Shown here one piece after another: positions 42,915-50,540 of a DNA stretch of 64,000 nt. The position numbers and the translations under genes are program-made. Position 1 is the stretch's first letter. Each line of letters begins with the position of its first letter. A model generated the notes under the pieces. That model was not told the origin of the DNA. It did no database searches and saw only the letters and a program-made list of their open reading frames with translations. Origin of the DNA: Alternaria dauci (Eukaryota > Ascomycota > Dothideomycetes > Pleosporales > Pleosporaceae). Where the stretch lies: NCBI RefSeq assembly GCF_042100115.1, contig NC_091279.1, forward strand, positions 1,054,001 through 1,118,000, read 5' to 3'.

Positions 42915-43630
42915 GCGTTCTGGAGAAAGATGTTTCCTGTATATCACTTAGCATCGAATTCAAGATTGAAGCAAGAAAGCACGTAAGATGGTAGTCGGAA
43001 TCTACAAGGGAGAGACATGGGGGCTTCAAGTCAAGGAATGAAGCAGGAAATCATGTTCACCAAATTAAGGTCACCAGTAGCATTGGCCGTTGATCTTATA
43101 AAGCCTACTGTGTCTTGTGAAGCGTTGATGGTCATGAGACTAGGAACATGTATGAATTGATGATGTATCCGAGAAAGCATAGAAGATTCTTACGCATCTT
43201 ACCGACTCTGACATGCAACCTGCTCATAAAACAGTCGAAGTGCAAGGACAATTGGTTCTGCACTGAATGGTAGTCTGGTGTAAGAAGCTTTGTAGCCGCT
43301 TTTCCAAAGGCACCAAACATGTCCAATTACTCATGTTCTCCACTCGGTTCTGCATGCTTTCCCGACGATGCCTTTGCCTTGGCTCATAGTCCCCACTATG
43401 CACCGATGCCGACAGCCGAGGGCATTGGGCAAATTTCTCTGCGTTTCTGAACGCATACAGCCAATGACAATGCTGATTGATAGATTTTGTAACTCTTTTG
43501 TCAAGTCAGCCAATTGAAGCCTGGTAACCACAATATATATGCTAAGATTTCGGAAAATTTCATCAAAACAGATCACCAAGGGTAAGCTTCAATACACCCA
43601 CACCTTCAATATACCAGCTAACAGCCCTAT
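42915..43630. other. Intergenic region before the tRNA-like gene
   Basis: About 0.7 kb of AT-rich sequence with only short, unsupported frames. It ends at the tRNA-like gene. Confidence 0.35.
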
Positions 43631-43666
43631 CGTGGTATGGTCTAGTGGTATGACGTCGCGTTGTGG

Positions 43667-43699
43667 CTGGCGGACAACTTAGCTTGTCCTGATCCAGAT
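43667..43699 (+). other. Anticodon-loop tRNA intron (position 37/38)
   Basis: 33 nt at the canonical eukaryotic tRNA intron site. It folds into a hairpin: ctgg pairs with ccag, and ggacaa pairs with ttgtcc around a six-base loop. This fits a bulge-helix-type substrate of the tRNA-splicing endonuclease. Confidence 0.6.
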
Positions 43700-43719
43700 C
43701 CGCGCCAGCCTGGGTTCGA

Positions 43720-43779
43720 GTACGTTCTCCCACATTGAGTCGGTTTACTGAGACATTGTTACTAACAACATGTCTGTAG
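43720..43779 (+). other. Spliceosomal-type intron within the tRNA T-loop
   Basis: 60 nt between tRNA positions 58 and 59. It begins gtacgt, has a perfect ttactaac branch-point box, and ends ctgtag, the same signals as the protein-gene introns in this window. Agacat and atgtct flank the branch region as inverted arms and could fold it towards the acceptor. Its removal restores a complete T-arm. Confidence 0.6.
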
Positions 43780-43808
43780 TTCCCAGTACCGCCAATTTGC
43801 GACACTTC

Positions 43809-43814
43809 TTTTTT
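43809..43814 (+). terminator. Candidate RNA polymerase III terminator
   Basis: A run of six T residues begins 15 nt after the discriminator base of the tRNA-like gene, the normal place for Pol III termination. Confidence 0.5.
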
Positions 43815-48592: not shown

Positions 48593-50540
48593 GCTGGGCA
48601 ACGTGCTCCGAGGATTGGGAATGCGGCAGGTAGTTGGATTCTAGAGTGTCGGTGGTGGTTGAGAGATGGGATTCGTCTATCGTAGTGTTGCCTTTGTGGA
48701 GACTGGCGGCTGGCAACTTTCGAGTGTAAATCCCACACAAAGTGACTCAAACCCAGATTCGGAACAGCCCACCTGTGGCGGGGCTGCGCACAGCGTCCAA
48801 GCGCCCGCGGCGAAAGGTTCTGCCGGTCTTTTGAACAAAATCTCACTCGCCGCCGTCCCGTCCTTTCCTCTTCATTGAACAACGCAAAAAAATTGCACAC
48901 TCACGAAAAGCATTTTCTTTGGAGAGACCCGTCGTCTACGGATGGTGTGAGGTTTCCATGAGAACGAAAACCGTCTGTGAAGTGGAGAGGAATACTTTGG
49001 CTGATCTTGGGTGCGGTTTCTCCCTGCTTTTGCAGTGGGAGAGAGCGCAATGATTGGTCGTACATTACATGTTTGCGTGACGTTCTTGATGTGTTGCGAG
49101 GCCGACTTGACAACGTTACCCTCGGGCATACCCAGTTGTTGTTGATGACTGTGTACATGGCATCGTTGGCTGCATACAGCTCGATTCCGCTCAAGAGCGG
49201 CTTTATCCTATGCAGAGATGCACATGCACGCTTATCGCATGTTAAAAGCAAGCTCTTCTACCACGCAGCCGTTCGCAACAGCACATAGTAGGAACCCCCG
49301 AGAAAGCTCGTCATAACAAAGACGCACAAGTCATCAATGTTGCATAGAGAATGTTGCTAGACATTATTCAATTCCTCCTCGAAGATACTCTGGCCAGTGG
49401 GACCAGGAACAGAGTTTTTCTTCCCTGGATGGGGACACATGTCTTGGCTTGATACCCTGTAAAGTAATATCTGAAAGATGCGAAACTTGAATTAGCAACT
49501 ACTGTACCTGCAACACGCCCGTCACCCAAAACAAGTGGATCACGTATCTTATCGGAGCATTTTTGTATTCTTTTTGATGTACTCATAGGTCTCTTGTATT
49601 CTTGGCGCCGCAAGTGTCCTAAATCCCACCGACACTTCTTGTTCAGCCTTCTACGCGTACGTAAGAAGAAGATGTAATCGTGTTAGTCTTTTAGTTGTCA
49701 CATCTGCATGTAAAAGCTTGTGTGTTGTGATGCACCCTCTGGAAATCGGACGTGAATGGATCCATGCATCCATGCATCCATGCCCTTCTGCTTCTGTTTG
49801 GGACTAGCTTCCTTTGTGCCACGTGGAAATCCCATCACCACGGCCGGTATACATGACTCTGAATGCCATTGAAGGATGGCAATGGAACAATGGTGCACAC
49901 GGAACCATCTTAGGTCAGCTGCATCTACAGATCGACCTACCCCTGGATATGTAAAACACGGCTATCCTTGGAAGGAAGTTTAGCACGACCCGCTAGTGCT
50001 GGTAGAGGCTACGGGCTGGGGAAGCGGGATGCTACTATCCCATGCCCATCAAGAAGCACGGATGGATAGGCAGGCCGTGAGAGAGCCTGCGGATCATTGA
50101 ACCCTGGCCCAAACTACCAGGACAGTGTACATTGAGCACATTGAGCACATGGACATGTGTCTGCTGGGCTGCAAAGGCCAGGCCCTCGCCGCGAGCCGCC
50201 CCATCGAGAGCGGCGCCGGTATCCCGCTTCCTAGCTGCATGTTGACGACGGAGGTTAGATGGACCGTGTGGGCTCCAGTTGTTGATCTGACACAGACAGT
50301 TCAGAACCTCTCACAAGCGCGCCGTATCGGGGACCAGCCCGCTTGCTTTTCAGGCTGAAACATATCAACTCGTCGACTCGGGGCACCACTGGCCTCGACA
50401 CCGTCATTGGCCCAGGCGCCTTGTAATCGAGAGCAGCCGAGTGTGAGTTGGCAGCCCTTGTTGGTCGAGATTGGACCACCTCTTCCTACGACGTTGGCGC
50501 TGCCTTGCTTTTGCGCCCTTGCGCCCGCCGACTATGGAAT
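48593..50540. other. Long divergent intergenic region
   Basis: Nearly 2 kb between the eIF2-gamma start (-) and the RhoGEF start (+). Several short frames (for example 48901-49251 on the minus strand) show no domain. A small tandem repeat of ATCCATGC lies at 49760-49783. The RhoGEF frame is open upstream of its first ATG to about 50448, so an earlier upstream exon is possible. Confidence 0.4.
49760..49783. repeat. Three tandem copies of ATCCATGC
   Basis: Three perfect 8-bp units in non-coding sequence. Too short to be assigned a function. Confidence 0.6.

Follow-up and report, generated by a model that had tools for sequence, protein, structure and literature searches.

Analysis of a 64,000-nucleotide stretch of the Alternaria dauci genome (the window; C8:1054001-1118000 of an assembly of 34.9 Mb in 10 contigs), followed by searches of the genome, revealed six tRNA genes that carry a total of seven introns outside the anticodon loop: three genes for tRNA-His(GUG), one of them in the window, and one each for tRNA-Leu(CAG), tRNA-Arg(CCU) and tRNA-Ser(CGA). 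Each nuclear histidine-tRNA gene that we found carries an mRNA-like intron, and an uninterrupted one was not found. Judged from sequence, the interrupted genes are very probably working nuclear tRNA genes, transcribed by Pol III, in which spliceosomal introns of the U2 type interrupt the tRNA body; confidence in this explanation derives mainly from the tRNAs restored by excision and from the class of genes.

An earlier sequence-only reading of the window had described a D-arm, an anticodon loop, two inserts and splice-like signals, all of which are present (Table 1). On the intact window gene ARAGORN calls no tRNA and Rfam gives no match up to E=10, bearing out the expectation that standard finders would miss it. 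When the intact gene was compared with a version lacking the 60-nt T-loop insert, as that reading had proposed, ARAGORN called a tRNA solely after removal: a tRNA-His(gtg) with a T-stem paired 5/5, a TTCGATT loop, an acceptor paired 6/7 and, as described before, a 33-nt intron at the canonical position 37/38. The T-loop insert itself lies outside the canonical Sen-type position, at 58/59 rather than 37/38, where the separate insert sits. The mismatches at 1:72 (C1:C72) and 27:43, also remarked on before, are genuine and common to all three His copies; the spliced His cloverleaf retains mismatches at 27:43 and 13:22, plus 1:72 if a possible acceptor intron, discussed below, is not removed.

Table 1. 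Features of the window tRNA-His(GUG) gene (window coordinates) and of the other genes with T-arm or acceptor introns
Feature	Position	Strand	Description	Basis
tRNA-His(GUG) gene with inserts	43631..43794	+		ARAGORN after excision
5' exon	43631..43666	+	acceptor strand, D-arm, A box (43638-43648), anticodon GTG	same letters in the three paralogs
Anticodon-loop intron	43667..43699	+	33 nt, position 37/38	ARAGORN; paralog alignment
Middle exon	43700..43719	+	ends at A58 of the T-loop	ARAGORN; paralogs
B box	43713..43723	+	GGTTCGAGTAC, across the exon/intron border; 10/11 consensus letters, thanks to the 5' splice site GTAC	
T-loop intron, spliceosomal type	43720..43779	+	60 nt, position 58/59; GTACGT, TACTAAC, CTGTAG	
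Hairpin	43751..43775	+	AGACAT..ATGTCT, branch motif CTAAC (43762-43766) in the loop; kept in 3/3 His genes	
3' exon	43780..43794	+	remaining T-arm, 3' acceptor strand, A73	ARAGORN; paralogs
T-run	43809..43814	+	Pol III terminator, like most ordinary tRNA genes read in the genome	
TATA-like element	43534..43540	+	97 nt upstream of the apparent tRNA start	
CATCAA motif	43561..43566	+	at -70; probable transcription start region	
Candidate acceptor-stem intron	43582..43632	+	51 nt; GTAAGC..GCTAAC..TATCG, branch A 11 nt before its end	
tRNA-Leu(CAG), L105			58-nt insert at 6/7 (GTTCGT, TACTAAC, CAAG); 51-nt insert at 58/59 (GTACGT, CTAAC, CAGTAG)	
tRNA-Arg(CCU), L097			51-nt insert at 53/54 (GTAAGT..CTAAT..TAG)	untargeted family search
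tRNA-Ser(CGA)			50-nt insert at 53/54; 21-nt anticodon intron	fully paired only once these are removed

The sequence-only reading had called for a count of other such genes. On the minus strand, a DNA search of the genome identified two further tRNA-His(GUG) genes, at C1:849775-849967 and C10:593895-594107, each of them interrupted as well. The exons, 71 letters in each gene, show no substitution in 213 aligned positions (0/71 per pair), whereas the T-loop introns show 23 substitutions in 154 aligned positions and 28 gap columns over the three pairs together. By pair, the introns differ at 7/50, 11/53 and 5/51 positions (Fisher p relative to the exons 0.0016, 4.5e-5 and 0.011) and have 12, 10 and 6 gap columns, and in the 100 nt upstream of the genes 76 of 296 positions differ among the three copies. 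Gene conversion is disfavoured as the cause of exon identity because it would level introns and exons alike, and selection on the exons is thus the simpler reading. Despite their divergence, the T-introns retain GTACGT, CTAAC, AG and the hairpin with CTAAC in its loop. The anticodon intron, 33 nt in the window gene and 30 nt in the paralogs (L032 and L033), likewise keeps its fold through a paired change in its stem, GGACAA/TTGTCC versus GGACAC/GTGTCC.

Near the middle of its T-intron, each of the three His genes has a segment complementary to the 3' strand of the acceptor, which it could mask in the unspliced RNA. That T-introns always pair with this strand was dropped as a general rule after a shuffle test, in which 113, 0 and 1 of 1000 shuffles matched the pairing for the His genes on C8, C1 and C10, respectively, and 303, 153 and 908 did so for Leu, Arg and Ser; it remains a curiosity of the His genes.

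Placing the 5' splice site pattern right behind the T-loop letters GGTTCGA gave six matches in the genome, namely the three His genes, two sites that are not tRNA by eye, and the tRNA-Leu(CAG) gene L105. Removal of both inserts from L105 yields a complete cloverleaf, and two acceptor pairs fail when the T-intron alone is taken out. Its spliced 5' acceptor strand, GGCAAGA, is the same as that of tRNA-Leu(UAG) (L082), 63 nt of its body are identical to the uninterrupted tRNA-Leu(CAG) gene L072, and its TATA element lies 40 nt upstream of the tRNA, where without the 6/7 intron it would be 58 nt farther. The tRNA-Arg(CCU) gene L097, the only one outside the window and its paralogs to come from an untargeted search, is also blank to ARAGORN on intact DNA and fully paired when spliced. 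The spliced tRNA-Ser(CGA), used as a DNA query against the genome, found no further copy. Overall, excision restored a tRNA in 6/6 genes, with full pairing of the cloverleaf in Leu, Arg and Ser. Unlike the interrupted L097, the uninterrupted tRNA-Arg(CCU) gene, L073, has no T-run within 40 nt downstream. At another locus (L076, positions 1-50), the T-arm and acceptor 3' half of a different tRNA seemingly stand directly ahead of tRNA-Ser(AGA), as a tandem pair.

Further screens were targeted to positions 53/54 and 58/59 only, so that any preference for these sites is partly built in. The pattern for a 53/54 intron had six matches, comprising the Arg and Ser genes and four sites judged not to be tRNA; excision tests on the matches of this screen yielded none, a weak test, the Ser piece being too short for recognition. 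A broader screen for T-loop introns beginning GTRNGT had 70 matches, six of which were already known (the three His genes, L105, and the two non-tRNA sites L104 and L106). None of the remaining 64 was tRNA-like by eye over the stretch read, from 110 nt upstream to 5 nt downstream, and none was called by ARAGORN, which cannot detect an interrupted tRNA.

One alternative regards the interrupted genes as tRNA copies in decay or as repeats derived from tRNA, with the tRNA supplied by ordinary genes elsewhere, a view to which the His mismatches at 1:72 and 27:43 and the existence of uninterrupted counterparts for Leu(CAG) (L072) and Arg(CCU) (L073) lend something. We consider it very unlikely, however: the three His genes share identical exons while their introns and flanks differ, the Leu acceptor stem is fully paired by way of its second intron with a 5' strand equal to that of Leu(UAG), the genome searches turned up neither a further nuclear His gene nor a further Ser(CGA) gene, and T-runs and TATA elements are kept. 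The caveat of the sequence-only reading that the window gene might be such a copy is contradicted by the two paralogs with identical exons. As expected of functional nuclear tRNA genes, the genes with inserts have a cloverleaf after excision, an A and a B box, and a T-run.

Inspection of the seven introns revealed GT..AG ends throughout. Their 5' ends are compatible with U1 (GTACGT in four, and GTTCGT, GTAAGT and GTAAGA), their 3' ends are TAG, CAG or AAG, the last being a less usual 3' site that closes the Leu acceptor intron, and a CTAAC or CTAAT branch motif lies 9-14 nt from the intron end in 7/7. Their length of 50-60 nt lies inside the 46-95 nt (median 55) spanned by nine candidate mRNA introns in the window, a set chosen on the basis of frame, a GTRNGT motif and a branch motif and unproven as introns; GTACGT opens 4/4 of the 58/59 introns versus 0/9 of these candidates. 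By ends, branch distance and length all seven conform to the U2 type, and we infer that they are spliceosomal introns of this class that the spliceosome would remove. Introner-like multiplication was not seen, as DNA searches with the whole loci of one His gene and of Leu, from which short diverged copies could escape, gave only the His paralogs and a Leu body. Outside this genome, one pattern each against viral and against prokaryote contigs had 0 matches.

It appears highly improbable that the inserts are cleaved not by the spliceosome but by an Ire1-like route or by the tRNA splicing endonuclease, at a bulge-helix-bulge of the kind known from archaea and Cyanidioschyzon. Some eukaryotes do have non-canonical endonuclease introns, and archaeal ones occupy sites that include 53/54 and 59/60 (PMC4090602), yet a strict bulge-helix-bulge (a 4-bp central helix, two 3-nt bulges and flanking helices) was complete in 0/7 introns, which speaks against the endonuclease, and GT, CTAAC or CTAAT, and AG stand at spliceosomal spacing in all seven. 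The best central helix, 4/4 in the Arg gene, had both flanks at 0/3.

Restoration of a tRNA by excision was also compared with chance by removing segments with splice-like signals from 65 sequences (259,082 bases, some overlapping) and submitting the joined flanks to ARAGORN. The 156 excisions gave nine tRNA calls, all from the three His genes and Leu, which were sampled repeatedly on account of the motif that they carry, and 561 excisions with five sets of decoy signals gave 0. Loci outside the window had been selected for tRNA or tRNA-like motifs, and the fair part of the comparison is thus the window, with one match, the reported gene, and the decoys.

The interrupted genes appear to retain their Pol III signals. 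Insertion at 58/59 splits the B box, but in the DNA GGTTCGA followed by GTAC matches 10/11 letters, and at 53/54 the AG of the intron followed by TTCGANTCC does so too, with the result that all six T-arm introns leave a 10/11 B box. When all insertion points within the B box were compared, only 53/54 and, with GTAC, 58/59 were this good, the edges 52/53 and 61/62 aside. We hypothesize that the GTACGT shared by the four 58/59 introns may reflect preservation of the B box, and we go no further than this for the choice of sites because the screens were limited to 53/54 and 58/59. TTTT is absent from all seven introns, T-runs inside the 60-nt intron of the window gene being at most three letters long. 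TATA elements and T-runs are present in the interrupted genes, as in ordinary tRNA genes; the TATA element lies 40-43 nt from the tRNA in the Leu, Arg and Ser genes and at -97 to -99 in the three His genes, which also have CATCAA at -70 to -72. A CATCRA motif occurs within 49 nt of the tRNA in 25/41 ordinary nuclear tRNA genes, many of which were read only 50 nt upstream, and, at -40 to -6, in 11 of the 19 that were read to 130 nt.

We propose that Pol III would transcribe the window gene, with the splice-site letters rebuilding the B box in the DNA, and that the spliceosome would then cut at GTACGT and at the AG past the CTAAC branch site, restoring the T-arm. Excision of the separate intron at 37/38 would fall to the tRNA endonuclease and ligase, and trimming of the ends to RNase P and a 3' nuclease, the order of these steps being presumptive. 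The paralogs, the three other kinds of tRNA and the lack of an uninterrupted nuclear tRNA-His among our matches support the proposal of the sequence-only reading that one transcript needs both the endonuclease and the spliceosome, the spliceosomal part being deduced from sequence.

Several searches bear on whether an uninterrupted nuclear tRNA-His exists. The letters TTGTGG followed at 8-69 nt by an unbroken GGTTCRANTC had seven nuclear matches, none of them a tRNA by ARAGORN with introns allowed or not, and the spliced tRNA-His as a DNA query against the genome returned the three known genes only, in pieces. AGTGGT with TTGTGG had 52 matches (63 for the reversed pattern), and the 32 inspected comprised the three known His genes and 29 sites without a tRNA-His by ARAGORN. 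As a control, a like pattern for tRNA-Asp(GUC) had five matches that included three ordinary tRNA-Asp genes, whose T-loops are unbroken and whose anticodon introns measure 16-18 nt. The tRNA family search scored 63 of 931 candidates, leaving the tRNA list incomplete, so that an odd or divergent uninterrupted tRNA-His could be missed by it. The notion that such a gene exists or sits in an assembly gap, the three interrupted genes serving otherwise, for example as Pol II transcripts, draws on this 63/931 coverage and on the 32/52 matches inspected, but is extremely unlikely given that pattern and DNA searches free of the 63/931 limit found none and that the three genes retain their A box and T-run and most of the B box.

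One ordinary tRNA-His does sit in a tRNA cluster judged mitochondrial-type from its density and a TCA anticodon. This cluster (G000:C3:3344209-3399162) lies within a nuclear-size contig, about 46 kb from the contig end, and points either to a join made in assembly or to a large copy of mtDNA in the nucleus.

The 5' leader of the His genes (43561-43630 in the window) is itself intron-like, with two conserved blocks, around GGGTAAGC and around CCAGCTAACA, and a variable middle. A candidate acceptor-stem intron of 51, 53 and 51 nt in the three genes can be drawn here, in the additional sequence that sets the TATA and CATCAA motifs of the His genes farther from the tRNA than in the other genes; its removal gives a GG+TGGTA acceptor paired 7/7 and a tRNA call in 3/3 His genes. 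It ends in CG rather than AG in all three and is outside the count of seven GT..AG introns. This stretch may be an odd intron that accounts for the 1:72 mismatch, or the resemblance may be misleading. Conceivably, tRNA-His guanylyltransferase might mend C1:C72. A more ambitious reading, which we regard as possible though somewhat less likely than not, joins several of these points: all cytosolic tRNA-His, and tRNA-Ser(CGA), would be made only via the spliceosome; each His gene would hold three introns, one at 2/3 in the acceptor stem (GTAAGC..GCTAAC..TATCG, with a GT-CG end), the endonuclease intron at 37/38 and that at 58/59; and splice-site letters would double as B-box letters, so that promoter tolerance would set the positions of tRNA introns.

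The splicing of tRNA and that of mRNA are taught as separate pathways, and we know of no textbook in which the spliceosome is needed for making tRNA. Canonical eukaryotic tRNA introns are substrates of the Sen endonuclease. One such intron is the 33-nt insert at 37/38, whereas the T-loop, T-stem and acceptor inserts sit elsewhere and have spliceosomal signals. Yeast U6 snRNA genes carry mRNA-type introns, for which an origin by reverse splicing has been proposed; these genes, too, are short and transcribed by Pol III, and their introns are spliceosomal, but the RNA is a different one. GT-AG spliceosomal introns also occur in fungal nuclear rRNA genes, among them 18S genes of Pleosporales (Cubero 2000 and Bhattacharya 2000, as cited in PMC11889510), where they likewise interrupt a gene for non-coding RNA, within the order to which Alternaria belongs. 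Pol I rRNA has no internal promoter to survive, in contrast to the tRNA genes described here with their B box. In archaea, Cyanidioschyzon and nucleomorphs, non-canonical tRNA introns likewise interrupt the T- and acceptor arms, with several in one gene; according to PMC4090602, the archaeal and Cyanidioschyzon ones depend on a bulge-helix-bulge, complete in strict form in none of our seven, and how the nucleomorph ones are removed is unexplained. Among the matches listed in our literature search, which covered mainly papers outside subscription, none was recognisably about tRNA genes with spliceosomal introns.

If the spliceosomal reading is correct, translation in Alternaria dauci would depend on the spliceosome via an indispensable tRNA, a Pol III transcript would reach the spliceosome, and real genes would escape tRNA gene finders. 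It would also offer a clean test of intron entry into genes with an internal promoter, and it predicts that interrupted genes are hidden in other fungal genomes seemingly without an isoacceptor.

Elsewhere in the window, positions 48873-49065 (plus strand) match the Aspergillus RNA family Afu_182 (RF01496) at 138.5 bits, the sole Rfam match of the window above threshold. The window also encodes an eisosome protein whose nearest named relative is that of Alternaria panax, at 93% identity, with other Pleosporales lower.
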